Of a stretch of 64,000 bases of DNA, positions 6,264-41,792 are shown piece by piece. Every line of letters begins with the position of its first letter. Positions within the stretch are counted from its first letter, which is position 1. Origin of the DNA: a virus. The translations under genes were made by a program, and so were the position numbers. The notes beneath the pieces are model-generated. The model worked only from the letters and a program-made list of their open reading frames with translations, was not told the origin of the DNA and did not search any database. The stretch covers positions 124,001 to 188,000 of the IMG/VR virus record IMGVR_UViG_3300036766_002181; one strand, given 5' to 3'.

Positions 6264-6272
6264 ATACAACAT

Positions 6273-12473: not shown

Positions 12474-12832
12474 TTGTTTCCCTTTAATTCTGGTGTATAT
12501 TTTGGTTCATAGCCCAGTTCTGATATGACGCTTTTAAACATATTTTTTATATAAACTCTTTGATCCAATAATGGCCTAGTTTCAACGGCCGGCAAAACAA
12601 ATGACTTATAGGTTCTATCATAGGTTGCCCCGGTTTGTTTTTCTAAAGTATTTAAGTCCCTTTCAAAAAGGGGAGAAACAAAGATAGACCAAGACTTCTT
12701 TCCGTCCTCATCCTGTCCAAGGGTAATAGAGAGATTTATAATCTTTCTTTTATTGTTGGTGACCTGATTTAAATCTTCTTTTTGGATCTCTTCTTTAATA
12801 AGAGTCGTAAGCTGCTTAAGGGTAATTCTCAT
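12470..12832 (-). CDS. Tagged small hypothetical protein in the head operon
   Basis: The 120-residue protein starts MRITLKQLTTLIKEEI, with I-K-E near residues 12-14. It continues into a compact alpha/beta-like domain (KSWSIFVSPLFERDLNTLEK, then TYKSFVLPAVE). No family is recognised. It overlaps both neighbours by four bases, and its start overlaps the prohead protease stop, so it is translated with the protease that I propose processes it. Confidence 0.65.
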   Translation of the reverse strand: MRITLKQLTTLIKEEIQKEDLNQVTNNKRKIINLSITLGQDEDGKKSWSIFVSPLFERDLNTLEKQTGATYDRTYKSFVLPAVETRPLLDQRVYIKNMFKSVISELGYEPKYTPELKGNK

Positions 12833-14556
12833 TTCTTTATCTTTTTATTCAAATTTAGAAGTTCTGATACTGCCCTGTTAACCCTGTCCTGTCTTGAGAA
12901 GATCTTCTTAAGATCCTCCTGGGAATATTCTCTTCCCTCTGTCATGGTCATCCATGCGCCGTTAGTTGAAGGCTCACTCACCATATCGAAGCAAACAAGA
13001 TGAAGATCGTCCTGAACAATATCCGCATCTCTTCCTGAGTCTCTTGAAACAGACCCAAGGGCTCTGCTTGAAATTCCAACTCTGATATTTGCCTTAAACA
13101 AATTCTTTAAGATTTGTCCCATTGGAAGATCCTCAAGAACCTCAACTTTTCCCTTAACGGTTCCATCAGATTCCATCCAAATCTCTGTTATAACATGTGA
13201 GGCATTCTTAAGATTTACAACCGCAGAATCAGAATTTCCAGTCCAATATGGTCTGCCTTTGTCTCTTGCAAGAAAGTTGCCATTTTTTGTTGATACGCAA
13301 TAAAGTCTACCAGAATATTGAACTGGTTCCATTTTAACAAAACAACATCTCATATGAGAATTTGTAATGTTTTCTGCCGTTGTAAACAGCGTATTAAGAT
13401 TTTCTTTTTTAACAACTCTATTTTGAATCTTAATATCCTTTGTCGCATATAATCTTTTTATAAAGGAACCTGCTCCTAATTTGAAAAGAATCTCGGTGGT
13501 ATCCTCTGACAGTTGTTGAGATATTGTTGAATATTCTTTAATAAGTCTTCCAGACTTTTTATCTCTTCTGTTTCTTCCGTCACCCATGAGCATCCAATCG
13601 AACATCATAGACAAAGTTTCTTTATCCCAGTCTCTTAAAAACTCTCTTGGTATAAATTTGGTTTTGCTATTTCCAAATTGCTTAAAATAAGCATGTATAT
13701 CTTTACCAGATATTTTCCAATCATGAGTTATTCCTCCGTATACCTGATCTGTTCTTGTGGATTCTCTCCACGGTATATTTGTTTTGGATAACAGCTCATT
13801 AATTTTCTTAACCATAAATTCTTTTTTCTGGGTTATTCCAACGCTGTATCCCTTACCTTTGCTACCACGACTACCACTAACATGCCCTTCTGCTGTCCAA
13901 ATTCCAAACAAGGCTGCCCAAACATCCAATGGCATAGAATATTGTGTTCCTGGTATTGTAAAATTTTCCTCTTTTTGTTTTTTAGCTTTCCAAACTCCAG
14001 AATTTCTCAAATAGGAATGAGAAAGCTTAGAGTCGTTGTTTTTCCACAAATCATATAATTCTATAGCAGTTACCTTGTACGGCCTGTGATATCTGTCCCA
14101 CATTAAAACTTTGTGATTGGGAGACACTAGCATGTCCATGGTTTTGCCGTTCGTTATATGAAACATCAATTTCGAATGAGATTTTGTGTCAATTTTTTTC
14201 TTAATTTGTTCTATTTCAATTTCATCGGTTTCCGTATTAAGAGTATAAACCTCTTCTTTATCGGATATATCTTTAAGATATTTCCAACCGTGATTGGCTG
14301 TTAATATTTGGGCATTTTCGCTTAGGCAATGGTCCAATTCTCCGATTGCCCTTCTTTCCTTAACCAAAAGTTTATAGCTATCTAATTGCGCCTCAAGAAT
14401 ATCTCTTGGGTAGATTCTTCCATTTTGATTAAGGGCATCTGCTCTTTGAAGCACTCCCTGAACAATAAGAGGCTTGTCTTTGTTATCATCTGCCAGAGAC
14501 TTTTTAACCTCTTCGTGATCATAGGAAAAATCCTGTAGTTCTTTTAATAGTTTCAT
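12829..14556 (-). CDS. 21: Prohead core protease, gp21-like, intein-containing
   Basis: The 575-residue precursor contains a 365-residue intein (residues 77-441). The spliced protein would have 210 residues, almost exactly the size of T4 gp21 (212). Motifs of the T4-type prohead serine protease are present: GRIYPRDI, GELDH with the catalytic His76, GISSRALGSV with the catalytic Ser, and FDMVSEPS. The intein interrupts directly after the catalytic His, so protease activity should depend on splicing. The N-terminus LLKELQ has an L-K-E site, consistent with self-processing. The protease degrades the core and trims capsid proteins at (I/L)-x-E sites. It starts two bases after the upstream gene ends. 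Confidence 0.93.
   Translation of the reverse strand: MKLLKELQDFSYDHEEVKKSLADDNKDKPLIVQGVLQRADALNQNGRIYPRDILEAQLDSYKLLVKERRAIGELDHCLSENAQILTANHGWKYLKDISDKEEVYTLNTETDEIEIEQIKKKIDTKSHSKLMFHITNGKTMDMLVSPNHKVLMWDRYHRPYKVTAIELYDLWKNNDSKLSHSYLRNSGVWKAKKQKEENFTIPGTQYSMPLDVWAALFGIWTAEGHVSGSRGSKGKGYSVGITQKKEFMVKKINELLSKTNIPWRESTRTDQVYGGITHDWKISGKDIHAYFKQFGNSKTKFIPREFLRDWDKETLSMMFDWMLMGDGRNRRDKKSGRLIKEYSTISQQLSEDTTEILFKLGAGSFIKRLYATKDIKIQNRVVKKENLNTLFTTAENITNSHMRCCFVKMEPVQYSGRLYCVSTKNGNFLARDKGRPYWTGNSDSAVVNLKNASHVITEIWMESDGTVKGKVEVLEDLPMGQILKNLFKANIRVGISSRALGSVSRDSGRDADIVQDDLHLVCFDMVSEPSTNGAWMTMTEGREYSQEDLKKIFSRQDRVNRAVSELLNLNKKIKK
13234..14328 (-). other. Intein with LAGLIDADG endonuclease in the prohead protease
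   Basis: The intein runs from Cys77 (CLSENAQI) to Asn441 (RPYWTGN), with Ser as the +1 residue. The C-terminus ends Gly-Asn and not His-Asn, a form common in phage inteins (WTGNS). Block B (LVSPNHKVLM) is present. A LAGLIDADG-type endonuclease is indicated by LFGIWTAEGHVSG and FDWMLMGDGRN, both with acidic residues in place, so the endonuclease may be active. Confidence 0.9.
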
Positions 14557-14557
14557 A

Positions 14558-15601
14558 TTATTTTGTCGCTATCGCCTCTCTATCGCCCACATTGTTTCCA
14601 ACGTTTTCCTTGCTTTTAAGCTCTTCATTTAGTTTGGCCACGGCCATATAAAAGACAATTGCCTCGTCATCAAGGACGGCAACTGCCGTTGGTTTACCAA
14701 ATAGGTTTCCCTTTTCTTCAAGCATGGTCTTTGTTTCTGTTAACTTCTTAATTTGCTGAATTGCCGTTGAAGAAGACGAATTGCTGTTCTTTTGTTTTCT
14801 GGCAAGCTCGTCTGAAACAAGCTCAATGGTTTCTCTGTTAAGGTTCTTAAGATAACTTGACAAATAGGGAAGATCCTTGCCAAAGACATATCTTTGAACA
14901 ATGTCCTTTTGGCTTTCTGTAAGCACCCTTGAAAACTTCTTATTAAGTTTTTCTCTCATAAGCCTAACAACAAGTCCATCAACCTCTGCCTCTTTTAGGT
15001 TAAGAGCAGCCCCGGCAGAATTTAATTGTTGCGATTGAACCGCTGCCGTCTTCTTGTCAGTTGTTGTTGTCGTCGTCATCATTAGCTTTAAAACCCTGTC
15101 TTCAAGTTCTGCAACGGCAGGATTAAGAATATTCTCTAAAAGAGCAGGACTTCCACTATTGCCATTTGAAGAATTTGATTTATCAAGATAATTGTTAATC
15201 AAAATTTGTACGGTTGCCAAATTTTTATAATCAGGAATATCTCTATCAAAAAATTTATTGTTTTGATTAAGACCAAGGGAACCTAGTTCTCGGATCAGAC
15301 TTGTCTTTTCTTGTTCTAAAATCTCTTGATTAATAAGTTTTTTGCTAACCAGGTTATCCCTAATTGTTTCCCTGAGAAAACTCCAGGCAACCTCCCTGCT
15401 TTCAAAGCTTCTGTTTTGAATTGCAGAAAAAATGGCAAGCTCTTTGCGAAGCTCTGTGCCTTTTTTGGTATATTTGTTCCAGAGATCCTTAGAGGCAGAA
15501 ACCCTGTCATGTCTTTTTAGGATAATAGATTCTGCTATAAAGGCCGAGAAGAATTCGGCCAGCATTCCTGAATTCCTCTTTTTGTTGTGTTTTAAAATCA
15601 T
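14558..15601 (-). CDS. Probable prohead core/assembly protein (gp67/68 position)
   Basis: The 347-residue, mostly helical protein lies between the portal and prohead protease genes, where T4 has the small core genes 67 and 68. The N-terminus MLAEFFSAFIAESIIL contains an I-A-E site and resembles the start of T4 head-core and internal proteins. A Thr run (MTTTTTTD, near residue 175) and Ser/Asn linkers separate helical segments. No enzymatic motif is visible. The assignment rests on gene order and helicity, not on clear sequence similarity. Confidence 0.55.
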   Translation of the reverse strand: MILKHNKKRNSGMLAEFFSAFIAESIILKRHDRVSASKDLWNKYTKKGTELRKELAIFSAIQNRSFESREVAWSFLRETIRDNLVSKKLINQEILEQEKTSLIRELGSLGLNQNNKFFDRDIPDYKNLATVQILINNYLDKSNSSNGNSGSPALLENILNPAVAELEDRVLKLMMTTTTTTDKKTAAVQSQQLNSAGAALNLKEAEVDGLVVRLMREKLNKKFSRVLTESQKDIVQRYVFGKDLPYLSSYLKNLNRETIELVSDELARKQKNSNSSSSTAIQQIKKLTETKTMLEEKGNLFGKPTAVAVLDDEAIVFYMAVAKLNEELKSKENVGNNVGDREAIATK

Positions 15602-15628
15602 GATTCAAATAGCAATATGTCATAAATA

Positions 15629-18600
15629 TTAGGAATCTTTATTAAAAACATCTTTTAGGGTTTTTTCTTCAATTCCAGCAAGTTCCTCTTCATTAATTGC
15701 CTGCTCTTCTGATTTTACTACCAACTCCTGAATAATATCTTCAGGATTAACAAGACTCTCTTCTATTGTCATTTGATGATTGGGATGGCTTGCCTCTGTT
15801 AAAAGAAGATCAAGGGTTTCCATTGTTTCTTTTTCTGCTTCTTCTGGCCTCTCTTCTGCCATAATCTCAATTTCTATATCTTCTTCTTCTAACAAGGGCA
15901 AATTGCCTTTTTTGTTTCGTTCTTCCTGTTCTGTAAGAAGTCCGCCAGAGGTTTTCTTTCTCGTTGCACCAAAGTCCTGTTTAGAAGATTTTTCCATATT
16001 CTTGAATACAGATCTAATTTCCTTGTTTAGACGTGGAGTTGTTGATATTCCCTTAAGAAGGTCGTCATCTATGTTTTTATTATTTCCTTCTGGCTGCCCT
16101 TCTGTTTCTTGAATTTCCATCAAGAGGGAGGCCTTGAGAGAGGACAGGTCTAGGGCCTCTGTTCTCTGGCCGTGGATATCCCTGGTATACTTGTTTCTTG
16201 GGCTCAGCATGGCTCTCTGGTCTGGCATTGCCATATTGCTTCGGCCCTTACCAACACCCAATCTTCTAATTCTATTTCTTTTATGTTTTGTCAGGAATGG
16301 GGTTGCCTTAATTGGCATTTTCCTTTCTCTATCTTCATCTGTTTCTGGGTAGGTTGATGCCGTGCTTGTATCGAAAGAAGCTACTGCCACCACTTCTGCA
16401 TTATCACTATCTTGTTCTAGGGTTGCTCCAAATGGCTTTGGAGGCTGGTCCTTGCCAAACAATTCATAGTTGGTTGTATCAAAGGGATTAACCGTTTTTG
16501 ATGGCTGTGGCGGTTCCTCTGGATCCTTGAGTTCCATGGCCTCGGCAGAAAGCTCTCTAACCTTGTCTGTAACCAATCCTTTTTCAATAAGATCGATATC
16601 TCCATCTGTTAATTCAAGGATATTCTTTTTAACCCACTTTTCATCAACAAGCTTGGTTTCCTTGGCCGTACCTGCAATATCAAACTTAACTGCCCAGAGT
16701 TCAAGTTTTTGTTGGGCTGCAACAGAGCTTGGATTTGATAACTTTAGTTCAAAGTCCAATAAATCTTCTCCGTCAAAGCCCTTGGCAAAGAGGTGAATCA
16801 TTGCCAGCTTGTTTAGTTCTGCAATCATAATCTTTTGTAGGCCCTGAATTGTTCTTGAGAATCTAACATCCATTTGGGCAAGGGAGGCCTTGGCTCCCAG
16901 GGTTTCCATGAAGTTCAGATAGGGCTTTGGAACCTTCAGGGAGGCAAACAGCTTGTTTTGAAGATATTCAACATCCTCAATGGCAGTTGTATTCTGGCCG
17001 CCAGATAGAGTATCAATCTTTGTTCCCTGGGCATTGCCACGTACGGGGATAAAGTAGTCGTCTAACGGAGAATTGGTAATGATTACGCCGCCTTGCACAG
17101 CATTTCTAGAAGCTTTCGAGTTTAATTTTTGGGTTGTAACCGTAGCAAAATTATGACGGTCGTTCTCGCCATTTGGCCCTTCTACGGTCATGCAATAAAC
17201 ATCACATTCTTCATCAACAAACTTCACAGACTTAACCTTATGATTTTTTTTGGCCCTGTTTAAATTTTCTTCTTTATTGGCAAATCTGGAAGTCAATTTA
17301 ACATAATTCTCTCCCATGACTTCCTGCTTCAGAGAATTTAAGCCATCCTCATAACCGTGTCTCTTTAAGATCTCCTTAAGACCACCCTCGCTGAATTTGT
17401 TAATATTTCTTCTTTCGAGATTGCTTTCCTTGAAAAGATTGAAGAACCTCTCGTTTGCCATCAAAGACTTTTGAAGTTTTCTTCTTCCCAACTCAGGGTG
17501 TTGTGAAACCATCTCCTTGACAATCTCAAGACACTCCTCTGGAAAGGACCACTGCATGGCCTTTGATCTATTTGTTTTATTCTCTTGCCACGATTTTAAT
17601 TGGGCAACCTTTCTTATTTCGTTATGTTCCTTATGAAGGGCGGTTCCATTATAATTGGCAGCAAGTTTCTTTCCCAAACCAAGCTTTATATTATTGTCTG
17701 CAACTCTTTTTCTGTTTTCGGGAGTTTTTACATATTCCATCAGTTTTTCAAAACCTGATTTATTAAGTGCAGCATGTAACTTGCTGTGATCGACATTTCC
17801 CATCCACTCAAGATTGTCTGGTGCATTGTTTTGTTTATTAAAGTCTTTGTGGTGAACAATCAAATAATGATTCTCTCCATGGACTGCATTTAGTTTTGTT
17901 TCTGTCAGAAGCTCTTTTTGTTCTTTCCATACATCATTTGCAATAAACTTATGAGCATACTCATATTCCTCGGTTCTTGGATTATAAACCATTGGATATT
18001 TGTTGAGCTTGTTTTTGCCATATATTGTCGATGACAAGGTTCTATAAAACGGCATAAGAGACATGTTCTCTTCTAGCTTGTCTGCCCTGATCTGTTTTCC
18101 ATCTCTTAGAATAAAGGGATGCTCAGGAGCAGTTCTTATTGTGCTTCCATCATCAAGTTCAACATGGACCATTTTTTGGGCTGTATAGTTCTTTCCACAC
18201 CAAACAACCTTGCCGGGAACAAGATCATGAGTTTTATCATTGATTGAAAAGACCCAATTATTCTTGTTTTTCCTATTGTTATTGTTTTCTTCAAACTCTT
18301 CTGCCAGTTGTTTAATTGGAATATTTCTTCCATCAAGCAGCGGAATAATTGTATCATGGGCAATTGGCATTGCTCCGTATCTCTGATCCTCTCGGCCTGT
18401 TTCCCTATCCATCACACCCCTTGAACGCAGGGTTGCCTTGGCTGCCTCCATATAATTTGGAACATCATTTGGTGGAATGTTTCCAACGTCAATATAGAAG
18501 ACTCTCCTTTCGGGGCTATTGTGAACTACCATGCCGTTTGCATAGAAGTTATGATTTTCATCCTCTACACTTATATCATAAACATCTTCATACTCATTAG

Positions 18601-21600
18601 TCGGCTTAACCTCTGATATCGTTTCTGATGTAATAAATCTTTCTTTTGCCAGGCTTGCAACTGCCCGACTATCCTCGACCATCATTCCTTGTAGACCGAT
18701 CAAGACTTCATGCTTGCTTGGAATAAGTTTTTCTGTGCTTACATAAAAGGCTTCAAAGCCCTTGCTATCTCTGTCTCTTACAAGAATGGGATGATTGAAG
18801 TTTGTTTTTAACGTTCTTCCTGTGGAAGTTTTAATTTCCCAGATTTGTTGCTTTCCATTGTTTACCCAGCCTGTAACTTTAGACAGAGTTGATCCCATGG
18901 TTTTTGTATCAAAAGAATAAACCTCGTCACCAACCTTTACATCCTTTATCTTTACCTCGCCACCCTTTGTATAGATCTTGCTATCTCCCTGCAAACAACG
19001 CACAATTCTATAGGTAAGCATTGCGTCTTCCATGTTGGTATTATGGGAAACAATGCCGTTTGCAACAAAGTTATGGATTGGGTGGTCTACTTCGATATCG
19101 TAGGTTTCGCCTGTTGTATGTAAGTCTTCTACGTGAGTAACTGCCTCACAAACATGATCCTCTTTGCTTTCTTGCAATAACTCTGGATTAATAAGAAAGT
19201 TTTTGTCTATATAGAGTCTATAAACGTTTTGGGTTGTAACGGTTTTATTAAAAAACTTAGAAAATTTTGTGTCGCCCAAGGAATTCAACTTAACCTCTCC
19301 AGAAACAGGAACTCCTGCCATTTGACATAAAATCTTTACATCTTCCAATAAGTTTTTACCTGATAGACAAATTGTTCCCGTATTGTTGTTATATCCGGCC
19401 CCTTCATGCAGACCCAGAATCAAGTCTTTTTGATAGTTCTGTGGCATGCTATAAACCCAACCTGGTATCCTTTTGTTTGCAAACCCGGAAATAAATCCGG
19501 CCTTTTCAAACAAAGAAATTAATTCCATAGAAGAACAGTTGGTCTGTCCGCTTGAATATTTCTTACCAACGTTTTTAGAATCTCTTAAAGACTTATTAAA
19601 AAGGATTTTAAATAGATTTTTGTAATAGTTGTTTTGTTTTTCATCAGGCCCTAGAGCAAATCCAATACGATCAACTTTTCTATAAACCCAGCCGTTTCCC
19701 AGCATAAAACCAAAAAGCCTCATAAAATCCTTGGTGACTGTGAAGGTTCTGTCTGGTCCCAAGAAAGATTTTTTGTGAGATTTTCTCATATAAAAATCAT
19801 AAGAATATTTTTTAAATTCAGGATTTGTTTTTAACAAGATTTCAAAATTGGAAAAAGATAAGCCTTTCTTTCCTTGAATAAACTTGTATATGTTTGTCCT
19901 ATCTTTATGAATTTTTTTATATTTCGTTAAAGACTCTCTATCAAGTTTTATCTTCTGGCCTTTTTTAAGCATAACCCTGTAGTCTTTTTCATTTAACTTT
20001 ATTTGGTGTACTCTTTCAGAATTTAATCGGGCAGTATTTGGCAAAATAAGTTTATCTGCATTTCTATGTGTCTGTCCGACGACACCTCTTGACTCAACTA
20101 TATCAGAGGCTTTTTTGTAAAGAAGTTTTCCATCCTTATTCTGAACGAGAAGGTCATGATTTGGTGTTACATCTATGGTTCGATGATTGGTTTTAACTCT
20201 TACAAGTTTTTGCTCTCCTTGTTTTGTTAAACTTTTAACCTTCGCCTTAACAAGATTTTTAGTTGTGTAATCAAATGAATAAATTACATCGTCCTTTTGT
20301 ACCTCTTCAACCTTTTTCCAGCCATCCCCTTCTACCCAAATTTGCGTAGCAGAACTAACACAAAGTTGTCTCCAAACTCTACGAGAAGACTCCAAAACTG
20401 AATTATGAACCACTGTGCCGTTTGCATAGAAGTTATGATCAGGATGGTCGATCCAGATATCATAGGTTTCTTTTTCTCCAACCGAATCAATTGATAAAAT
20501 TGATTCTATTAAAATATTTTTGTTTTGAAGAATTTTATCATTTTTGTTAAGAACAGATTTTTCTTGTTTAAGTTGTGTTTTGTAAAAATATAAAACATAT
20601 GAAGAGTTGTTTTTACTTACCAATTCCACACCTGCAATTTTATCAGTAAATCTTGTTCGTTTTTTTATTTTTCCAGATTTCCATCCTAAACTTTGGATAA
20701 CAATTTTAAGATCTTTTAATAATTCTTCATTACATATTTCTATAGAATATCTTTCGCAATTCCACCTATCTGTGTTAAGGCATCCATCGGCATCTACAAA
20801 TCCTTCAATAAAAGCTTTTTTAATTTTATTAGATGCAGAAAAAATCCAACTTGGCACTCTTTTTGTATGAGCCGTTCCAACAAACCCTAGTCTTTGTAAA
20901 ATTGTTGCCAACATTGCGGAGTGAAACATTGCTGTTCTGCTGCCAAAGGCATACTGCTTGGATCCGTATTTGTATATTTTTGCTTTTCGACCAGAAAAAT
21001 TTTCTAATAAATTAATATATTTTTGATTGTCTTCGTCGTGAACACCCATTGAAAAACCAACACAGTTTAATCTTCCTCTAACTCTTTGATAATGACCATC
21101 GCCCAGTAAAAACCCAATTAGCTTTGCCATATCCTCATTTACATAATCAGGAATTAAGGCTATATTCTTCCAAATAAATTTTGCCTTTATTCTATCTTTT
21201 GGTATTTTTTTATTTATTTTCTTTCTTTTGCTTGTCTTGTGATGATGACCTAAGACCATCAAATCTCCAGACTTAAGATCTCCTATTTGCTTATAGATAA
21301 AATCATATTTGTTTTTGTCATAAAGCATAATGCGATGTTCTTTACTGGCGTCGATGAAATTATGTTGAGTTGACACCCTAAAACATTCTTTCTTTCCAGA
21401 TGCAACAACGTCTAAGACTTTTGTTGATACTTGTTTCCTTGTTTTCTGATCCAGAGTTAGCACCATGTCTCCTGGTTTTACATGCTGAATTTCTTTTTGT
21501 CCATTTGAAAAAGCTATGTAATTTCCAGCACTTAGACAATGACCATAGGGGAGGAATAAGTCATCTCCAAGAATTCTAAAATGGATGATTTGCCAGTTCT

Positions 21601-22714
21601 CAAGATATTTGTTTCCTCGGGTTAACCATTTAAATCTAATGGCAGCCGGATCCTCAGAATCAAATCCTTCTTCTCTTTCAATTTCGTTGACGGCAATGGG
21701 GGTTACATTGACAATTCCAATGTCAGGATAAACTTCACAATACAAGAACATATCCCCAAACTTACATACATTACGAGCCCAGAGTTTAAGATTAAACTCT
21801 ACGTTGACCGTATCATAAAACAAGTCATCAAGAGCAGCCTTGACTTCTGCATTCTCAGAAAAGATATGAAAACATTTTCCCCTATCATCACCACCAACAA
21901 TTTCTTCTGAGAATGTATCAATTGCTGCTGCAATTTCAGGCATGGTACACATTTCACTGAACTCGGAATTATGAATTATTCCGCAAGGCCTTAAATTTAT
22001 CGGATCTATTACAGCAAAATTATGAGTTCCTTCAATTGTTAAATCATAAACCTTTTCTGTTTTACCTGTAAAGATTACTTTTGTAACCTTATTATTTTCA
22101 TAATTGGTAATAAAGTCATATTTTTTTCTATAAAAAGGCATAATGGCGTCATCGGCCTTTAAGTCTTGGGCCTGCCTATAACTGCCATCTCTCAGCATTA
22201 TTCTGTGATCTTTTGTACATTTTAAAATTGCCTCATTATCAAAGTGAACTTCAACAACTTCATCTTCTTTTGTATAAAAGGCATTTAAAATTTTTCTTAA
22301 AACAAGCTTATTAGATTCAGGATCAAAAGAGAAGGTATAAAAAACTTCTTGATCTTCTAGTTTTTTGTTTTTATTTTTCTCATATATTTCAGAAAGCTCT
22401 TGTATGCTGGTATGCCCCTCTTTTTTGTTAGTAGCTACCAACATATCTCCTGTAATACAATAACGGCTTATTCTGTCCAGCAGACCATAGGATCCAAGCA
22501 CAGAAAATGGAGAATTTTCTCTTCCAAATCCAAATGGAGCAGAAGCCTTATAGCCATAGTTGTTTTGAATTACCTGAGAGTCATAATAGGCCTTTGGATC
22601 ATGGCCCTTAACTCTTCTTTGAATTGCAGGGCCCGAACGAAAGATTGTTGTTAATCTTTTAAAAAATTTGTTTATGTTTGAGGGGCCATAAGCCGATTTT
22701 CTATTTGAAGGCAT
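15629..22714 (-). CDS. 20: Portal vertex protein, gp20-like, with five inteins
   Basis: The 2361-residue precursor reads as six portal segments separated by five inteins: residues 1-85, 250-392, 772-784, 1226-1239, 1400-1451 and 1882-2361, giving 787 spliced residues (T4 gp20 has 524). Joined, the segments reproduce gp20 hallmarks: SEMCTMPEIAAAID, LWARNVCKFGDMFLY, SVLESSRRVWRQL, NMEDAMLTYRIVR, SPERRVFYIDVGNIP, LDDYFIPVRG and GTKIDTLSGGQN. The C-terminal extension (about 250 residues) is acidic and probably disordered. The portal forms the dodecameric ring that nucleates the prohead and docks terminase. All five splices must succeed for a portal to form. It is the first gene of the leftward head operon. 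Confidence 0.95.
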   Translation of the reverse strand: MPSNRKSAYGPSNINKFFKRLTTIFRSGPAIQRRVKGHDPKAYYDSQVIQNNYGYKASAPFGFGRENSPFSVLGSYGLLDRISRYCITGDMLVATNKKEGHTSIQELSEIYEKNKNKKLEDQEVFYTFSFDPESNKLVLRKILNAFYTKEDEVVEVHFDNEAILKCTKDHRIMLRDGSYRQAQDLKADDAIMPFYRKKYDFITNYENNKVTKVIFTGKTEKVYDLTIEGTHNFAVIDPINLRPCGIIHNSEFSEMCTMPEIAAAIDTFSEEIVGGDDRGKCFHIFSENAEVKAALDDLFYDTVNVEFNLKLWARNVCKFGDMFLYCEVYPDIGIVNVTPIAVNEIEREEGFDSEDPAAIRFKWLTRGNKYLENWQIIHFRILGDDLFLPYGHCLSAGNYIAFSNGQKEIQHVKPGDMVLTLDQKTRKQVSTKVLDVVASGKKECFRVSTQHNFIDASKEHRIMLYDKNKYDFIYKQIGDLKSGDLMVLGHHHKTSKRKKINKKIPKDRIKAKFIWKNIALIPDYVNEDMAKLIGFLLGDGHYQRVRGRLNCVGFSMGVHDEDNQKYINLLENFSGRKAKIYKYGSKQYAFGSRTAMFHSAMLATILQRLGFVGTAHTKRVPSWIFSASNKIKKAFIEGFVDADGCLNTDRWNCERYSIEICNEELLKDLKIVIQSLGWKSGKIKKRTRFTDKIAGVELVSKNNSSYVLYFYKTQLKQEKSVLNKNDKILQNKNILIESILSIDSVGEKETYDIWIDHPDHNFYANGTVVHNSVLESSRRVWRQLCVSSATQIWVEGDGWKKVEEVQKDDVIYSFDYTTKNLVKAKVKSLTKQGEQKLVRVKTNHRTIDVTPNHDLLVQNKDGKLLYKKASDIVESRGVVGQTHRNADKLILPNTARLNSERVHQIKLNEKDYRVMLKKGQKIKLDRESLTKYKKIHKDRTNIYKFIQGKKGLSFSNFEILLKTNPEFKKYSYDFYMRKSHKKSFLGPDRTFTVTKDFMRLFGFMLGNGWVYRKVDRIGFALGPDEKQNNYYKNLFKILFNKSLRDSKNVGKKYSSGQTNCSSMELISLFEKAGFISGFANKRIPGWVYSMPQNYQKDLILGLHEGAGYNNNTGTICLSGKNLLEDVKILCQMAGVPVSGEVKLNSLGDTKFSKFFNKTVTTQNVYRLYIDKNFLINPELLQESKEDHVCEAVTHVEDLHTTGETYDIEVDHPIHNFVANGIVSHNTNMEDAMLTYRIVRCLQGDSKIYTKGGEVKIKDVKVGDEVYSFDTKTMGSTLSKVTGWVNNGKQQIWEIKTSTGRTLKTNFNHPILVRDRDSKGFEAFYVSTEKLIPSKHEVLIGLQGMMVEDSRAVASLAKERFITSETISEVKPTNEYEDVYDISVEDENHNFYANGMVVHNSPERRVFYIDVGNIPPNDVPNYMEAAKATLRSRGVMDRETGREDQRYGAMPIAHDTIIPLLDGRNIPIKQLAEEFEENNNNRKNKNNWVFSINDKTHDLVPGKVVWCGKNYTAQKMVHVELDDGSTIRTAPEHPFILRDGKQIRADKLEENMSLMPFYRTLSSTIYGKNKLNKYPMVYNPRTEEYEYAHKFIANDVWKEQKELLTETKLNAVHGENHYLIVHHKDFNKQNNAPDNLEWMGNVDHSKLHAALNKSGFEKLMEYVKTPENRKRVADNNIKLGLGKKLAANYNGTALHKEHNEIRKVAQLKSWQENKTNRSKAMQWSFPEECLEIVKEMVSQHPELGRRKLQKSLMANERFFNLFKESNLERRNINKFSEGGLKEILKRHGYEDGLNSLKQEVMGENYVKLTSRFANKEENLNRAKKNHKVKSVKFVDEECDVYCMTVEGPNGENDRHNFATVTTQKLNSKASRNAVQGGVIITNSPLDDYFIPVRGNAQGTKIDTLSGGQNTTAIEDVEYLQNKLFASLKVPKPYLNFMETLGAKASLAQMDVRFSRTIQGLQKIMIAELNKLAMIHLFAKGFDGEDLLDFELKLSNPSSVAAQQKLELWAVKFDIAGTAKETKLVDEKWVKKNILELTDGDIDLIEKGLVTDKVRELSAEAMELKDPEEPPQPSKTVNPFDTTNYELFGKDQPPKPFGATLEQDSDNAEVVAVASFDTSTASTYPETDEDRERKMPIKATPFLTKHKRNRIRRLGVGKGRSNMAMPDQRAMLSPRNKYTRDIHGQRTEALDLSSLKASLLMEIQETEGQPEGNNKNIDDDLLKGISTTPRLNKEIRSVFKNMEKSSKQDFGATRKKTSGGLLTEQEERNKKGNLPLLEEEDIEIEIMAEERPEEAEKETMETLDLLLTEASHPNHQMTIEESLVNPEDIIQELVVKSEEQAINEEELAGIEEKTLKDVFNKDS
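17072..18361 (-). other. Portal intein 5: unusual Ala1 intein with HNH endonuclease
   Basis: Residues 1452-1881 (430 residues). The first residue appears to be Ala (AHDTIIPLLDGRNIP) where a Cys or Ser is usual, and the end is Thr-Asn (VIITN) instead of His-Asn, +1 Ser. Block B is RTAPEHPFILRDG. An HNH endonuclease is visible as VHHKDFNKQNNAPDNLEW...DHSKLH (about 1620-1648). Boundaries were set by restoring a portal-like junction, YGAMPI/SPLDDYF. Confidence 0.82.
18518..18997 (-). other. Portal intein 4: mini-intein
   Basis: Residues 1240-1399 (160 residues), Cys1240 (CLQGDSKIY) to HN at 1398-1399, +1 Ser. Blocks B (LKTNFNHPILV) and F (VYDISVEDENHNFYANG) are clear and there is no endonuclease domain. 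Confidence 0.93.
19040..20362 (-). other. Portal intein 3: LAGLIDADG intein with decayed catalytic residues
   Basis: Residues 785-1225 (441 residues), Cys785 (CVSSATQIWV) to HN at 1224-1225, +1 Thr. Splicing blocks look intact. The two LAGLIDADG motifs read LFGFMLGNG and LGLHEGAG: the catalytic acidic positions are Asn and Ala, so cleavage activity is probably lost while splicing is kept. Confidence 0.9.
20402..21538 (-). other. Portal intein 2: LAGLIDADG intein
   Basis: Residues 393-771 (379 residues), Cys393 (CLSAGNYIAF) to HN at 770-771, +1 Ser. Two LAGLIDADG motifs, LIGFLLGDG (532-540) and FIEGFVDADG (635-644), keep their acidic residues, so the homing endonuclease looks intact. Block F is YDIWIDHPDHNFYANG. 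Confidence 0.93.
21968..22459 (-). other. Portal intein 1: mini-intein
   Basis: Residues 86-249 (164 residues), from Cys86 (CITGDMLVATN) to His248-Asn249 (CGIIHN), +1 Ser. Splicing blocks are present (LKCTKDHRIML for block B, KVYDLTIEGTHNFAV for block F). The length leaves no room for an endonuclease, so it is an immobile mini-intein. Confidence 0.93.
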
Positions 22715-27851: not shown

Positions 27852-28541
27852 ATGCCTATGTCAAATAAGCCTGAATACTATATTGGACAAATTGTTTATA
27901 TTTTGTCTAGCAAGACTCAGGTAATTTTGCCGGCAAGAATTGTAGAACAGGTTACGGTTCAAACATTAAATGAAAAGTCAACAAATTGGAAAATTGCCGT
28001 AGGCAAGGAAGGGGATCCAAAACAAAAGATTTTTGACTTTGGTAAAATCAATGGAGAGGTATATACAGATCTTAATGAGATCAAAAGCATTTTAACAAAA
28101 CGTCTTCAATCCTTTATTGAAAATTTGGTAAAAACGGCATCACAGAGAGAAGAGATTTGGTATGGCAAATCAACAAAAACAGTACCGACAGTCCTGCCCT
28201 TGGTTGCAGGACCATCCACCACAGAGATTTCAACAAAAGAAGAAGAAGAAAAAGAAAATACGGGAGAATTGACTCTTGAAGATTCTGTCTCATTTGATCC
28301 AGAAGCAATCTTACAACAATTAGATTCTACCTTGCCAAGCAATGGCATATTTCACCAGCCCTCGACAACAAATCCCAACTTGTTTTCAGCAGCCTCCTCT
28401 CCTCCAAGTCTGGACGAATTAAGAAACAGACTTAAAAGCGATTTAGAAGATAGTGAAACAATAGAAGGCGAAAAGCATCAAACCACAACAATCCGTGGAC
28501 CTGATGGAGAAAGATATAAAGTTAGATTGGATACACTATGA
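27852..28541 (+). CDS. Hypothetical protein, SH3-like N-terminus
   Basis: About 229 residues. I chose the ATG at 27852, with 27858 also possible. The N-terminal 80 residues (EYYIGQIVYILSSKTQVILP, ARIVEQVTVQT) look like a small beta barrel of the kind found in many phage proteins. A helix (SFIENLVKTASQREEIWYG) and an acidic, Ser/Thr-rich C-terminal region follow, with a final beta segment (RGPDGERYKVRLDTL). Its stop overlaps the chaperonin start, so the two are probably translationally coupled. Confidence 0.6.
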   Translation: MPMSNKPEYYIGQIVYILSSKTQVILPARIVEQVTVQTLNEKSTNWKIAVGKEGDPKQKIFDFGKINGEVYTDLNEIKSILTKRLQSFIENLVKTASQREEIWYGKSTKTVPTVLPLVAGPSTTEISTKEEEEKENTGELTLEDSVSFDPEAILQQLDSTLPSNGIFHQPSTTNPNLFSAASSPPSLDELRNRLKSDLEDSETIEGEKHQTTTIRGPDGERYKVRLDTL

Positions 28542-30433
28542 GTAATAGTAACAACAAGCAGGTTATCTTTTCTGAAGAGGCTCGTGAAAAAATTCTAGAA
28601 GGAGCCACAATTCTGGCTAGAGCCGTAGGAAGCACAATTGGTCCTGGCGGGCATGGTGTTATAATCGAACATGCTGCATTGGACGAGGCAAAGCGGCAGG
28701 GCATAGGAGCCTTCTCCTCTTCTCCTTCTTTTGCAGCACCATTAATCACAAAAGATGGAGTGACCGTGGCCCGATCTATTCGATTAAAAGATAAACTTGC
28801 TTCAATAGGTGCAGAACTTCTAAAAGAGGTTGCCAACAAAACAAATGATCAGGCAGGAGACGGAACAAGCACGGCAACGGTTCTTGCCCATGCTCTTCTT
28901 CAAGAAGGAACCAAAATTGTTACCTCTGGATATTCTTCGGTTTTTGTAAAAAGAGGAATGGAGTCTGCTCTAGAGATTGTTTTAGATTATCTTAATGATA
29001 ATAAAATATTAATGACCTCTGAACAAGAACTTATAAGCGTGGCTACAATAGCCGCAAATGGAGATAGAGAGATAGGGAGACTTATAGCAAGCGCCATAAG
29101 TCAGGTGGGTATAGACGGGCTCATTACAATCGAGCCAGCAAAAAGCATTAAAACAAATTTAAGACTTGCAGAGGGCATTCGGTTGGAAGCGGGATTTGTT
29201 TCTCCATTCTTTGTTACAAACAATGATAAACAACTTTGTGAACTAGAAAATCCATATGTGTTAATCACGACCGGAAAGATTTCTAGCCTGTCTGAAATTT
29301 TGCCTGTTCTTGAACAGATAGATCAAACAAAAAAATCATTGTTGATCGTGGCCGAAGATGTAGAAGGCGAAGCCTTACATACTCTGGTTGTTAACAAGGT
29401 AAAGGGAGTAATAAAGGTTTGTGCCGTGAAGTCTCCAAGTTATGGAGAAAATCGGGCAGACCTCCTGGCCGATCTCGGGATTGTTGTTGGAACGCAAACG
29501 GTTTTAGGGGCAACCAGCGAATTATCAATTAAGAAAATTAAACTCGAACATCTTGGACAATGCAAGAAGGCAATAATTGGTAGAAATTTTTGTACGATTA
29601 TTGTTGATGAAAAAAACGATAAAGTTAGAACAGATATTAAAAATCGGGCAGACTCCATAAGAAATTCATTAACAAGTGAAACTTCGGTTTTAGACCCGCT
29701 CAGACAAGACAAATATAGACAAAGACTTGCCAAGCTTTCTGGTGGAATTGCCATTATTCAGGTTGGTGGTTCCACAGAGGTAGAAATTTTTGAAAAGAAG
29801 GACAGAGTAGAAGATGCTGTTAACGCCACACAGGCAGCGGCACAGGAAGGAATTGTTCCTGGCGGTGGAACTGCACTTTTTTATGCTGCACAACATTTAA
29901 AAAGCATGATAAAAACCGGGATCATTAAAACAAAAACCGGGTCGGTTAGACTACCAGTAACTTTGTCCTCAAGCCCGATAGATGATTTTTTTGAAGAACA
30001 ACTTTCGCAAGAAGAGGTTGCAGGGCTACAACTTGTTGCAAATGCCTGTGAGGCTCCATTCAGAATCATTATCGAAAATTCTGGCGAATCAGCAGAGGTA
30101 GTGGCAAATAAACTAATTCAACATCAATCTGGTTTTAAGGGATTTGTTTTAGACACAGAACTTATTGATAGTGAAAACATCAATGAAATTATTAAAGAGA
30201 TCCAACAAAAATCAAAGGATCAAAAAGACGAAAAGGTTATTGAGGCCAAAAAATGTTTTGGCTATAACGTGGCAACCAAGAAGTATGGAAATCTTATCGA
30301 GGCAGGAATTATAGATCCTTGCAAGGTAACAAAGCATGCTCTTGAGAATGCGGTTTCTGTTGTTAGCCTAATGCTGGCCTGTGATGCCGTGGTATTGGCT
30401 TATGATGAAAGCGACAATAACTCAAAACAATAA
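28538..30433 (+). CDS. GroEL/Cpn60-type chaperonin
   Basis: The 631-residue protein (GroEL has 548) matches group I chaperonins: ILARAVGSTIGPGGHGV near the N-terminus, ITKDGVTVARS, NDQAGDGTSTATVLA (around residue 108), KKDRVEDAVNATQAAAQEG, IVPGGGTALFYAA and FGYNVATKKYGNLIEAGIIDP. The Asp residues equivalent to the ATPase residues Asp52, Asp87 and Asp398 of GroEL are present, so it should hydrolyse ATP. The C-terminus lacks the GGM repeats of GroEL. Some jumbo phages encode chaperonins that work without GroES; no GroES is visible here either. It likely folds capsid or other phage proteins. Confidence 0.95.
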   Translation: MSNSNNKQVIFSEEAREKILEGATILARAVGSTIGPGGHGVIIEHAALDEAKRQGIGAFSSSPSFAAPLITKDGVTVARSIRLKDKLASIGAELLKEVANKTNDQAGDGTSTATVLAHALLQEGTKIVTSGYSSVFVKRGMESALEIVLDYLNDNKILMTSEQELISVATIAANGDREIGRLIASAISQVGIDGLITIEPAKSIKTNLRLAEGIRLEAGFVSPFFVTNNDKQLCELENPYVLITTGKISSLSEILPVLEQIDQTKKSLLIVAEDVEGEALHTLVVNKVKGVIKVCAVKSPSYGENRADLLADLGIVVGTQTVLGATSELSIKKIKLEHLGQCKKAIIGRNFCTIIVDEKNDKVRTDIKNRADSIRNSLTSETSVLDPLRQDKYRQRLAKLSGGIAIIQVGGSTEVEIFEKKDRVEDAVNATQAAAQEGIVPGGGTALFYAAQHLKSMIKTGIIKTKTGSVRLPVTLSSSPIDDFFEEQLSQEEVAGLQLVANACEAPFRIIIENSGESAEVVANKLIQHQSGFKGFVLDTELIDSENINEIIKEIQQKSKDQKDEKVIEAKKCFGYNVATKKYGNLIEAGIIDPCKVTKHALENAVSVVSLMLACDAVVLAYDESDNNSKQ

Positions 30434-37220: not shown

Positions 37221-40200
37221 ATGAACGGCATTATTCTACAGCCTAAAAAATTCGTAGGGCTTCATTCGCATTCGACTTTCTCGATTGGGGACGCAATTGG
37301 TAGACCAGAAGACCATATAGAGTTTGCCATAAAAAATGGCATGGATGCCCTGGCCCTAACAGACCACGGCAACATGAATGGTCTTTCTCACCAGTATCTT
37401 TATTGGGAAAACAAACTTAAAAAGTCTGGCTCAGCTTTTCGCCCACTCTATGGCAATGAGACATATTTTGTTTCAAGTCTAAAGGACTGGCAAACTCTAT
37501 ATGATTCTGAGCAGCAGAAAAAGTCTCTAGAAAGAGAAGAGAAAAAAAAGAAACAGTTCCAAGAAAAGGTTCAGGGTCTTATGGATCCCTTTGCCTCTAC
37601 TAAGGAAGATCTTGTCATACTAACAGATACAAACAAACTAGACGAAAATCTTCAGGGAGATACAGGTGTTGAAAATGAAAGCGAATCAAAATCCAATAGA
37701 TGGAAAAATCCCCTCTATCAAAGAAATCACCTTGTCCTGTTACCCAAGAATAGCGAAGGTCTAAAGGCACTCTTTGCCTGCACTTCCTATTCTTTTATTG
37801 ATGGATATTATAGATATCCAAGAATGGATTTTGAAATTCTTGAGAAACATGCCAAGGGAAATCTTATCGCCCTAAGCGCATGCGTCGGCGGATTTTTAGC
37901 CAAAATTGTCTTTGACAATCAAGAGACAATAACAGATTGGGAACAGTTTAAACCCAATGATGAAAACTTTGAAAAAATTCAAAAAGAACTATCAGAGACG
38001 GTATCAAGATTTCAACACGTTCTTGGAAAAGAGAATTTTTATATTGAATTGCAGCAAAATAGTTTGTCTGCACAACATCTTGTAAACTATCACCTAATCG
38101 AATGTTCAAAAAGAACAGGTGCCCAACTTGTTACGACAGTGGATGCTCATTATTCGCATCCTGATCATTGGAGAGAAAGAGAAATCTACCGAGCAATGGC
38201 TCGTCTTCAATTTAATAAAAAACAAGAAGTGGGCAGCAAAGAAAAAACTGGTATGGAAGTAGAAATTCCAAAGTCTATTGATGAACTTAAATGTGAACTT
38301 TATCCAAAAAATGCAGAACAGGTATGGGAATCCTTTTTGCGATATTCAAAAGAATATGACTTTTATGATCATAAATTGGTTGCCGAATCTATAGAGCGTA
38401 CCCATGATATTGCTCATAATCAAATCGACAAAAATATTCAAATAGATAAAAGAATTAAACTTCCCTCGGTCAAGACTCTTGTTGATAAGGATGCCCTTCA
38501 GAGGCTCTGTGAGACTCTAGGAGACGATCCAGGCGAGGACGCCATGGCCTTTGCCCAGCTAAAAAAACTGGTCCTGGAAGGGGCCAGGTGGAGGCAGGTT
38601 GATCAAAGGGACGAATATATTCAAAGATTAAAAACAGAATTAACCGTTATTAAACACTTGAATTTCTCAAAATATTTTTTGACATATTATAAGGTAATAG
38701 AGTTAATAAGCAAGAAATGCTTAATCGGAATTGGTCGAGGTAGTGCCGGTTCTTCGGCAGTAGCTTTTGTACTAGGGATAACAAATATAGATCCGATTAA
38801 GCACAACCTGTTGTTTTCTAGATTTTTAACTCCGAATAAAAAGGGAAATCCAGACATAGACATTGATGTGTCTGATAGAGATGTCGCTTTAAAATTAATT
38901 TCTGAATTTTTTGGCGAAGACAACGTTATTGCTGTTTCTAACTTTAATCAACTTCAAATGAGATCTCTGATTAAGGATGCCTGCCGAGTTAATGGAGTTA
39001 CCTTCGAAGAGGCCAATGAAATAACCCAACAGATTGAAGCAGAAACAAAGGCTGCTGCCCGACAGGAGCCTGGCTTTGATGCTACTCAATGGTTCTTAAC
39101 CTATGAAGCCGCTGAAAATGATTCTGTTACATTTAGAAATATGATTGCAAAGTATCCTGAGCTTGAAAAAACAATTAAGGTTCTTTTTAAGAATAATCGA
39201 AACCTTTCAAGACATGCTGGTGGCGTTATCATAACAGAAAATGCCAGAGAGAATATGCCGATTGTTAAATCTGGCGGTGTGTTGCAAACTCCCTGGACAG
39301 AGGGAACCAATTACAGACATTTAGAGGCATTTGGATTTCTTAAGTTTGATATCCTTGGTCTGGGCACTCTTAGAATGTTTGAGTCCTGTATTAAGAGAAT
39401 TATAAAAAACAAACAAGGAATTAAATATCCTACCTTCGAACACGTTAAAACCTTTTATCAAAAAAATCTTATTGAAAACAGTCTAGATGATATAAAGGTT
39501 TATAAGCATGTTTATTGGAAGAAAAACTTTGCAGGCATATTTCAATTTGTAAGGCCACAGGTACAAGAGATGGTTTCAAAAATCAAGCCAACCTGTATTG
39601 GCGATTTGTCGGCCATTACATCACTTTTTCGGCCTGGGCCACTTTGTTTATCGGGCGATTCAGATATTTTAATAAAAGTGAGTAAATGGGGGCAGCCTGG
39701 GGTAAAAAAACAAGTTTGCCAATATAAAACTATTGAACAGCTTTATAGAGAATTTAATTTTCCTCTTCCGCACGGAAGATACAAATATGATATTTGTTCT
39801 ATTGACGAAAAAAGTAAGAAAATTATTTCAAATAAAATAGTAGGAGTATGTAGGTCTGGAAAAAAAGAAGTTTATGAAATTGAAGTTAGAGCAAGGTTAA
39901 CCACCTATAATGCTGCTACTAATCGTCGTTCTAGAGGGCCTAGATTTTTAAAAATTAAATCTACTTTGGATCATCGATTTTTAACGATTGATGGTTGGAA
40001 AAGACTAAAAGACATTGTACCTGGAGAATATTTGTTGTTTATGAATCGTAGTTCGAGCGTAAGGTCACGAAGAAAAGGAATTCTCGGAGAACGAAATTTT
40101 AATAATATTGCGTTTAAACATTACAGACACAAATGCATTTTTTGTAATTGGCAAAATGGAAGCTTAGATGTAAATCACGTCAACGGCAACAGATATATAA

Positions 40201-41792
40201 ATAATTCAGCAAATAATCTGTGCTTTGTTTGCCCCAATCACCATCGAGAAATAACAGAAGGAACCATTACTGAAAAAGAAGTTCGAATAGGCATGAAAAA
40301 ACACGAACTGCCCATGACAAGGGATATAAGAGCAATAAAATATTTGGACAAGAGACTGGTCGGTGTTCAAGAAACCTATGATATCGAAGTTGGGGGGCCT
40401 AATCACAATTTTATTGCAGGTGGTTTTGTGGTTCATAATAGCATTGGCGCCGAAAAGATTTATTTAAGAAATAGAAAAAATTCTACTGAGATCGAGTATA
40501 GGCATCCTCTTCTTAAAGAGGTACTTGAAGAAACTTCAGGAATTATTCTATATCAAGAGCAGTTACAACAAATTTATCATAAACTAGCAGGCGTTCCGCT
40601 TGACGAAACAGACGATATTAGAAAGGCCTTTACAAAGAAGGAAATTGCAAATAGAGAGGAATCTGAAAAAGAAAGAAGGAGATTGTGCGAAGAATTTGTT
40701 GTGCGCTGTAAAAAGGTTAATGATATCCCAGAGCATGTCTCTACAGAGATATTTGAAGAGATGGAAAAGTATACAAAATATTCCTTTAACAAATCTCACA
40801 GCTTTTCATACTCAATTATCAGCTATTTTTGTTCCTGGCTTCTTACCTACTATCCAGAGGAATGGATTGCAACCTATGTTGACTACTGTATTGAAGATAA
40901 AGGTAAGGTCGCCGGCTATGACGATCCCAAGGCAGTCGCCCTTGGAGAAGTAAGGGCTCTTGGCTACAACCTGACAAAGGCAGATATTAATCTATCTGAC
41001 AAAGAATTTGCTGTAAAGGACCAAACCAAAGAACTAATACCAAGCTTTGGTTCAATTAAGGGAATAGGTTCTGCTGCACAAAAAGAAATTTATCAATACA
41101 GACCCTACAACTCCATAGAAGATCTTCTATGGAATTCTGACGCCCTTACATGGAGACACAGTAAGTTTAATAAAAAGGCCATGTCTTCCCTGATAAAACT
41201 AGAAGCTCTGGATAGTATGGGTCTGGTTGGCACCGATAAACCATTTCAGAACTATAGGCAGTTACATCATGTTGTAGTGGATAGTGCAGAGACATTAAAG
41301 CGGGCAATTTCAAGAAAGAAAAATAAAAACCATAAAGAGGTTCTAGAGTCACTTATTAGTGAGGCAAAAACAATAACAGATTGGTCCTCTTCGGAAAAGA
41401 TGGAATTTGCAAAGGAACTTCTGGGTTCCATAGAAACAGGAATGATTGTTACGCCTGAAGTAAGGCAATTTTTCGAAGAATCTGATATTAAATCAATTGA
41501 TGATATTGAAAACCAAAAAACTATATATTGGGCCATTGCTCAAGAATGTAAGTTTGCCACAACCAAAACAGGTAAGAAGTATTGTAGGTTAAAGCTCCTG
41601 GGAGATTCGGGGGTTTCCTATCTCTGTTTTGTATGGAACTTTATACCCGGAAAAGATGTTCCATTTCCTGATAATTCTCTTATTGTGGGCAGCTTTAAAA
41701 AGTCTGATTTTGGTCTATCTGCCTCTTTTGGCAAATTAAGTTTATTAAATCACGTTTCTCCTGAAGGCGAATTAAATCAAAAGGACAATTAA
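37221..41792 (+). CDS. dnaE: DNA polymerase III alpha subunit (C-family), intein-containing
   Basis: The 1523-residue precursor has a 265-residue intein and splices to 1258 residues (E. coli PolIII alpha has 1160). An N-terminal PHP domain is seen (HSHS at 15-18, LTDHGNMNG). The polymerase core has GRGSAGSSAVAFVLGITNID (about 505), PDIDIDVSD (catalytic Asp545 and Asp547) and LKFDILGLG (Asp710, the third catalytic Asp). The SRHAGGVIIT and YQEQL motifs are also present. The intein splits RPGPL from SIGAEK. The family replicates bacterial chromosomes. Finding it with a T4-type head is unusual, because T4-like phages normally carry a B-family polymerase. No proofreading exonuclease is adjacent. 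Confidence 0.95.
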   Translation: MNGIILQPKKFVGLHSHSTFSIGDAIGRPEDHIEFAIKNGMDALALTDHGNMNGLSHQYLYWENKLKKSGSAFRPLYGNETYFVSSLKDWQTLYDSEQQKKSLEREEKKKKQFQEKVQGLMDPFASTKEDLVILTDTNKLDENLQGDTGVENESESKSNRWKNPLYQRNHLVLLPKNSEGLKALFACTSYSFIDGYYRYPRMDFEILEKHAKGNLIALSACVGGFLAKIVFDNQETITDWEQFKPNDENFEKIQKELSETVSRFQHVLGKENFYIELQQNSLSAQHLVNYHLIECSKRTGAQLVTTVDAHYSHPDHWREREIYRAMARLQFNKKQEVGSKEKTGMEVEIPKSIDELKCELYPKNAEQVWESFLRYSKEYDFYDHKLVAESIERTHDIAHNQIDKNIQIDKRIKLPSVKTLVDKDALQRLCETLGDDPGEDAMAFAQLKKLVLEGARWRQVDQRDEYIQRLKTELTVIKHLNFSKYFLTYYKVIELISKKCLIGIGRGSAGSSAVAFVLGITNIDPIKHNLLFSRFLTPNKKGNPDIDIDVSDRDVALKLISEFFGEDNVIAVSNFNQLQMRSLIKDACRVNGVTFEEANEITQQIEAETKAAARQEPGFDATQWFLTYEAAENDSVTFRNMIAKYPELEKTIKVLFKNNRNLSRHAGGVIITENARENMPIVKSGGVLQTPWTEGTNYRHLEAFGFLKFDILGLGTLRMFESCIKRIIKNKQGIKYPTFEHVKTFYQKNLIENSLDDIKVYKHVYWKKNFAGIFQFVRPQVQEMVSKIKPTCIGDLSAITSLFRPGPLCLSGDSDILIKVSKWGQPGVKKQVCQYKTIEQLYREFNFPLPHGRYKYDICSIDEKSKKIISNKIVGVCRSGKKEVYEIEVRARLTTYNAATNRRSRGPRFLKIKSTLDHRFLTIDGWKRLKDIVPGEYLLFMNRSSSVRSRRKGILGERNFNNIAFKHYRHKCIFCNWQNGSLDVNHVNGNRYINNSANNLCFVCPNHHREITEGTITEKEVRIGMKKHELPMTRDIRAIKYLDKRLVGVQETYDIEVGGPNHNFIAGGFVVHNSIGAEKIYLRNRKNSTEIEYRHPLLKEVLEETSGIILYQEQLQQIYHKLAGVPLDETDDIRKAFTKKEIANREESEKERRRLCEEFVVRCKKVNDIPEHVSTEIFEEMEKYTKYSFNKSHSFSYSIISYFCSWLLTYYPEEWIATYVDYCIEDKGKVAGYDDPKAVALGEVRALGYNLTKADINLSDKEFAVKDQTKELIPSFGSIKGIGSAAQKEIYQYRPYNSIEDLLWNSDALTWRHSKFNKKAMSSLIKLEALDSMGLVGTDKPFQNYRQLHHVVVDSAETLKRAISRKKNKNHKEVLESLISEAKTITDWSSSEKMEFAKELLGSIETGMIVTPEVRQFFEESDIKSIDDIENQKTIYWAIAQECKFATTKTGKKYCRLKLLGDSGVSYLCFVWNFIPGKDVPFPDNSLIVGSFKKSDFGLSASFGKLSLLNHVSPEGELNQKDN
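39645..40439 (+). other. Intein with HNH endonuclease in the DNA polymerase
   Basis: Residues 809-1073 (265 residues), Cys809 (CLSGDSDILIKV) to HN at 1072-1073, +1 Ser. Block B (STLDHRFLTIDGW) and block F (YDIEVGGPNHNFIAGG) are present. A zinc-finger HNH nuclease is seen as KCIFCNWQNGSLDVNHVNGN with CPNHHRE about 25 residues on. It interrupts the conserved RPGPL motif of the fingers or palm region. Confidence 0.92.

Follow-up and report, generated by a model that had tools for sequence, protein, structure and literature searches.

The ribonucleotide reductase gene of Trichodesmium erythraeum is interrupted by four inteins (Liu, Yang and Meng 2003, as cited by PMC4649490 and by PMC1635734), and the haloarchaeal polB and MCM genes offer three to four intein sites (PMC10643990). 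In phages, inteins have been described in the portal and terminase genes of mycobacteriophages, where the accessible part of the report does not mention multiple inteins per portal and names only class 1 and WCT class 3 members (PMC5050341). The T4-type portal protein gp20 (PDB 3JA7) contains none. A gene with five inteins was not found in the accessible parts of the searchable literature, in which the highest number is four.

The window analyzed here, a stretch of 64,000 nucleotides, covers positions 124,001 to 188,000 of the virus record IMGVR_UViG_3300036766_002181, which comprises 244,715 bases as a whole. Its minus strand includes an uninterrupted open reading frame of 7086 bases, with no internal stops and no N, in which Pfam detects five Intein_splicing stretches (E 2.1e-67 in all) together with Portal_T4 (1.5e-48). 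The Portal_T4 (PF07230) score of 166.1 bits, against a curated cut-off of 22.9, identifies the encoded protein as a T4-type portal. Inteins account for 1576 of its 2361 residues (67%), the two thirds given in the original prediction, and the T4-type portal (gp20) exteins for 785. The features of the gene are as follows.

15629..22714, minus strand: portal (gp20) precursor reading frame, 2361 residues; predicted spliced product of 785 residues.
22460..22714, minus strand: extein 1, residues 1-85.
21968..22459, minus strand: intein 1, residues 86-249 (164 residues), Cys1, ending in HN before S; mini-intein after portal residue 85.
21539..21967, minus strand: extein 2, residues 250-392.
20402..21538, minus strand: intein 2, residues 393-771 (379 residues), Cys1, ending in HN before S; LAGLIDADG endonuclease intact by motif; portal site 228.
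20363..20401, minus strand: extein 3, residues 772-784 (13 residues, SVLESSRRVWRQL).
19040..20362, minus strand: intein 3, residues 785-1225 (441 residues), Cys1, ending in HN before T; LAGLIDADG endonuclease decayed by motif; portal site 241.
18998..19039, minus strand: extein 4, residues 1226-1239 (14 residues, TNMEDAMLTYRIVR).
18518..18997, minus strand: intein 4, residues 1240-1399 (160 residues), Cys1, ending in HN before S; mini-intein; portal site 255.
18368..18517, minus strand: extein 5, residues 1400-1449 (50 residues).
17072..18367, minus strand: intein 5, residues 1450-1881 (432 residues), non-canonical Pro1, ending in TN before S; putative HNH endonuclease; portal site 305.
15632..17071, minus strand: extein 6, residues 1882-2361; Portal_T4 match, then a long C-terminal tail.

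The portal gene resembles the ribonucleotide reductase gene of T. erythraeum in that an essential gene holds several independent inteins; the latter, however, has four, belongs to bacterial nucleotide metabolism and contains group II introns, whereas the window gene has five and encodes a phage head protein. The haloarchaeal MCM and polB genes share with it neighboring, site-specific inteins in mixed endonuclease states (PMC10643990), but these are replication genes with three or four sites, compared to 15 or more in portals. As in the mycobacteriophages, the portal and large terminase (TerL) genes are both occupied. Compared to T4 gp20, the window portal has a longer C-terminal tail.

Boundaries were called with a portal profile built from about 80 other portals, the query excluded, allowing long inserts that end in Asn or Gln before Cys, Ser, or Thr. 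Exactly five inserts were obtained (86-249, 393-771, 785-1225, 1240-1399, and 1450-1881), with the same result at two penalty settings, and the same procedure returned no inserts in 87 intein-free portal frames. Each excised intein scored above the Intein_splicing cut-off of 35.8 bits (46.5, 51.9, 63.4, 59.9, and 46.4 for inteins 1 to 5). The five complete inteins of the original prediction are thereby recovered, as are its boundaries for the first four and its short portal pieces of 13 and 14 residues (exteins 772-784 and 1226-1239). Its start for the fifth, A1452, lies two residues late: against the portal profile, the joined exteins reach 1516 when intein 5 begins at P1450, compared to 1503.5 for A1452, and the sequence of the T4 gp20 structure (3JA7) aligns without gaps over the intein 5 junction when the start is P1450.

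The joined exteins match T4 gp20 (PDB 3JA7) at E 3.7e-23 and show no indels at the junctions relative to the intein-free portals of Microcystis phage Mel-JY01 and Flavobacterium phage immuto, which bears out the claim that they form a convincing gp20. The G+C content of the inteins (0.30-0.385) is below that of the exteins (0.39-0.49). Given that the record stems from a metagenome-derived virus collection and consists of assembled sequence only, the arrangement might reflect an assembly artefact that joined fragments of different phages, or a non-functional pseudogene. Such an origin is hard to reconcile with a frame of 7086 bases free of internal stops and with five in-frame junctions at sites that other phages use. 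In addition, kin inteins occur at each site in independent contigs, and multi-intein portals recur across many contigs, one of them a 484-kb public record. Related inteins filling the same sites in unrelated contigs agree with the earlier statement that signs of misassembly are absent, and an artefact or pseudogene is considered extremely improbable.

Inteins 1 to 4 show the residues of class 1 (Cys or Ser at position 1, block B His, terminal HN, and Cys, Ser, or Thr at +1), in each case with Cys1 and with HN followed by Ser or Thr. From these residues, an ordinary class 1 splicing route starting at Cys1 would be expected. The gene would produce one precursor, from which the five inteins would each cut themselves out to leave the predicted 785-residue T4-type portal subunit.

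The endonuclease regions differ among the five inteins. Intein 2 has two LAGLIDADG motifs with catalytic Asp (GDG and DADG), and its LAGLIDADG_3 score is 29.7 bits against a cut-off of 22.5. Intein 3 keeps the LAGLIDADG domain, but its motifs read GNG and EGAG compared to GDG and DADG in the site orthologs, so that the pair of motifs with catalytic Asp is not preserved. About 270 residues of endonuclease are gone from intein 4 relative to its site orthologs in L173 and L161, and intein 1 is devoid of the HNH region that is still present in its nearest kin, the intein at site 88 of L179. In intein 5, the HNH motif is complete (HH...N...H conserved), with an HNH_3 score of 24.5 bits, just under the cut-off of 24.8. 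Judged by motif, the endonuclease of intein 2 is intact and that of intein 5 appears to be so, that of intein 3 is decayed, and those of inteins 1 and 4 are deleted. Splicing residues are retained in all five, including those in which the endonuclease is dead or missing.

This mix of endonuclease states fits a selfish homing cycle in an essential host gene, with neighboring homing elements persisting at all stages of decay within it. Inteins 2 (LAGLIDADG) and 5 (HNH) could home; inteins 1, 3, and 4 would persist because a loss of splicing would disable the essential portal. In the uninvaded gene, sites 228, 241, and 255 are only 39 and 42 bases apart, and one active endonuclease could therefore move three inteins: repair after a cut by intein 2 could carry inteins 3 and 4 as passengers by co-conversion. 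From the motifs, we infer both homing and co-homing of portal inteins. In haloarchaeal MCM, a comparable case, homing was hampered by neighboring inteins, and signs of co-homing were not found (PMC10643990).

A quickly built tree of 128 splicing domains, in which many forks are weak, was used to assess the kinship of the inteins; it shows 31 changes of site label compared to 86.1 in shuffles. The window inteins fall into five different site groups: intein 1 with the site 88 intein of L179, intein 2 within the site 228 group, intein 3 with the site 241 intein of L174, intein 4 with site 255, and intein 5 with sites 305, 152, and 332. Inteins thus cluster by site rather than by phage, which indicates that the five were acquired independently. 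A tandem duplication inside the gene had been considered as their source and was ruled out by the distribution over five site groups. Sites 228, 241, and 255 as a group, an N-terminal site group, and a C-terminal site group each contain related inteins, which makes older jumps between nearby portal sites likely.

Portals close to that of the window hold different sets. The L174 portal, 62% identical, has inteins at sites 93 and 241, of which only site 241 is in common; the L177 portal, 57% identical, has inteins at 93 and 305; and the L025 portal, 56% identical, has none, suggesting that the intein set turns over fast. Taken together, it is highly probable that the five inteins are selfish homing elements from five site-specific lineages, which entered one precursor-encoding portal gene independently.

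The original prediction proposed that five splicing events couple head assembly to redox, temperature, or time, that is, that the inteins are kept to time or condition assembly of the portal. All five do keep their splicing residues, three of them without a working endonuclease, and Cys-based active sites can be stress-sensitive, as described for mycobacterial DnaB (PMC6195587). Retained splicing residues are, however, equally expected when the portal is essential. Further evidence against the proposal comes from the portals just described, which at 56-62% identity hold no inteins or other subsets; intein-free portals are common, and sites and sets differ between relatives, implying that assembly in this lineage is independent of the inteins. 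Comparisons of relatives, endonucleases, and residues yielded no positive evidence for a regulatory role of the five, and such a role appears very unlikely. The simplest reading is that the portal inteins are selfish elements that have piled up in a conserved, essential gene.

To place the window gene among other portals, IMG/VR was scanned with intein-extein junction patterns and by intein family, and intact portals were sought as well. An IMG/VR search with the whole 2361-residue protein had returned no relatives because inteins break the conserved stretches, whereas junction-based DNA patterns worked. In T4-type portals, inteins were observed after spliced-portal residues 85, 88/89, 92/93, 98, 104, 107/108, 152, 227/228, 240/241, 255, 305, 330, 332, 363/364, 366, and 370, establishing 15 or more recurrent sites. 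Site 228 is the commonest site seen, with inteins at about 50 loci, and sites 228, 241, 255, and 305 are also filled in other phages. Insertion sites showed no more than a trend toward higher conservation relative to the remainder of the portal (p = 0.10 for all sites and 0.14 for the five).

Of the portals tallied, 81 were intein-free, 63 had a single intein, and 23, 16, 2, and 1 had two, three, four, and five inteins, respectively, numbers that should not be read as frequencies given that the searches were directed at junctions and intact portals. Four inteins each are present in the portals of L167 (sites 107, 228, 241, and 370), L168 (sites 152, 228, 240, and 330), and L360 (NVTD01000053.1; sites 93, 108, 152, and 305). 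The L360 contig is filed under a Candidatus Wolfebacteria metagenome-assembled genome and is probably a phage contig or a prophage. The 484-kb public phage LR756508 (L017) has a portal with three inteins, including sites 228 and 241; in LR756508.1, from position 3877 onward, the reading frame directly upstream of this portal also holds an intein. L296, a 5'-truncated frame of 2688 residues on a 10.3-kb contig, contains at least five inteins, at sites 108, 152, 305 (two), and 364.

The window gene is the only complete five-intein gene found in the IMG/VR portal scans. With two to four inteins in other portals and at least five in L296, it tops a continuous range, and the unusually high number that was originally emphasized is real but represents the extreme of this range. 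Portal genes are therefore densely targeted by inteins, which occupy 15 or more sites and can number at least five in a single gene. At site 305 of L296 (minus strand, residues 1066-1910), two inteins abut: the first ends in LLHN and is followed directly by Cys1 of the second, whose last residue is Gln. In this pair, the order of excision would decide whether the portal forms.

Intein 5 lacks the usual first nucleophile, a feature that the original prediction missed and that is more novel than the number of inteins. It begins with PIAHDT and contains Pro1, Trp56-Cys57, block B His83, and a block F motif DVYCM with Cys392; a penultimate His is absent. Its first residue, as placed by the query-excluded profile and the T4 alignment, is Pro instead of the Cys, Ser, or Thr of class 1. 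The predicted structure has the Hint fold (pLDDT 88) and superimposes on NpuDnaE at 1.8 A over 106 columns.

Pro1-type inteins are located at portal sites 152, 305, and 332. Pro1, Trp56-Cys57, His83, and Cys392 are common to 11 of the 11 inteins found before any motif search, and an IMG/VR search with the alignment of these 11 confirmed 224 relatives, of which 80 were kept, all in portal genes. At site 152, inteins were sampled by the C-terminal junction, a criterion independent of residue 1 and block F. This yielded 63 distinct inteins (58 Pro1 and 5 Cys1), with the block F Cys in 63/63; where no motif was called automatically, the sequence was inspected visually. Among the 136 inteins pooled from site 152 and the sites from 305 on, 97/97 distinct Pro1 inteins have Cys at F:4 and the Trp-Cys pair, a block F count that, like the 65/65 of another tally, is partly biased by the DVYCM search pattern, whereas the 11-intein and site-152 sets are free of this bias.

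An intein that starts with Pro and lacks the penultimate His could be defective at its N-junction, so that it only cleaves or remains in the portal. Pro1 and the block F Cys are, however, retained together in every one of the 97 distinct sequences, which occupy three sites in an essential gene, and this renders a defect highly improbable. Conservation and alignment suggest instead that intein 5 probably splices through the block F Cys in a class-3-like manner; this Cys would most likely start the reaction, with different helper residues.

Class 3 inteins are defined by the absence of a nucleophile at position 1 and by Trp at B:12, Cys at F:4, and Thr at G:5 (PMC5050341, PMC7664689). Among about 1700 of them, 4.6% deviate at Thr and 6.1% at Trp (PMC7891396). 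Intein 5 has Pro1 and, with Cys392, the Cys at block F position 4, but Phe at B:12 and Ile at G:5. With no nucleophile at position 1 and Cys at F:4 but without the Trp and Thr, it would be class-3-like by inference and not a member by signature. It could nevertheless descend from a known class 3 lineage as an ordinary member whose WCT signature has drifted: the block B His is also shared, and members with an altered W or T exist, such as AceL NrdHF with MCT (PMC7891396). Against such drift, Trp B:12 occurs in just 2/65 and Thr G:5 in 1/65 Pro1 inteins. Moreover, the nearest solved relatives by profile are the class 1 NrdJ-1 and DnaE inteins, and the family is nested among Cys1 portal inteins in a tree built without canonical class 3 sequences. 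Class 3 descent is thus rather unlikely.

In that tree, built after the columns of the traits themselves had been taken out, the Pro1 inteins cluster with the site-152 Cys1 variants in one group, with weak support of 91/40 (97/88 with three more rows). The site-152 Cys1 variants lie inside the Pro1 group (100/93), which looks like a return of Cys1 with retention of the block F Cys. Cys1 inteins elsewhere have Asp, Asn, or Thr at F:4, the exceptions with Cys being at sites 152 and 305, one at site 364 (L296), and the TerL2 and gp21 inteins of the phage studied here. Cys1 and the block F Cys coexist in L266, L278, L313, and L328 at site 152 and in L191, L222, L296, and L352 at site 305; inteins with both are possible evolutionary intermediates or reversions.

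The Pro1 family has in common with class 3 (MchDnaB1, PMC7664689; AceL NrdHF, PMC7891396) the absent nucleophile at position 1, the F:4 Cys, and the block B His, and it differs in the absence of Trp B:12 and Thr G:5, in its invariant Trp-Cys pair, and in its nesting in class 1 portal inteins. Tentatively, the Pro1 inteins at sites 152, 305, and 332 may have arisen from class 1 portal inteins and may have reached the route through an internal block F Cys independently, the Trp-Cys pair replacing the WCT helpers; this would be a second origin of that route. A portal family with Pro1 and a block F Cys but without the WCT Trp and Thr seems undescribed in openly available papers. A search of an annotated phage collection with intein 5 gave only three matches, all partial, with the one in LR756508 being a Cys1 relative, and a species genome collection contained two, including L360. 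Such scarcity in these collections may explain why the family seems to have escaped description. With this large natural collection of internal-Cys Pro1 inteins and their Cys1 relatives, the origin of non-canonical splicing becomes accessible to direct tests, and Pro1 inteins may yield splicing tools that do not need a Cys at the N-junction.

At least nine inteins are present in the 244.7-kb record: the five of the portal, two in TerL, one in gp21, and one in DnaE. Neither the additional inteins in TerL, gp21, and DnaE nor the status of portals as a general intein hotspot is part of the framing of the original prediction. Those inside the window are the following.

13234..14328, minus strand: gp21 prohead protease intein within the reading frame 12829-14556, 365 residues, Cys1, ending in GN before S.
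39645..40439, plus strand: DnaE intein within the reading frame 37221-41792, 265 residues, Cys1, ending in HN before S.

The gp21 intein is of the LAGLIDADG type and has both Cys1 and the block F Cys. DnaE is a phage-encoded, bacterial-type DNA polymerase III alpha. TerL (1355 residues; L175, G000:C1 at about 15383-17497, minus strand), which lies outside the window, contains inteins of 421 and 357 residues, the second of which interrupts the DDLVM nuclease motif. A free-standing homing endonuclease of 684 residues is encoded close to the major head gene, at positions 4218-6272 (minus strand); its N-terminal part matches a group I intron endonuclease and its C-terminal part a different family of homing endonucleases. 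A phage GroEL of 631 residues, longer than usual, is encoded at 28538-30433 (plus strand).
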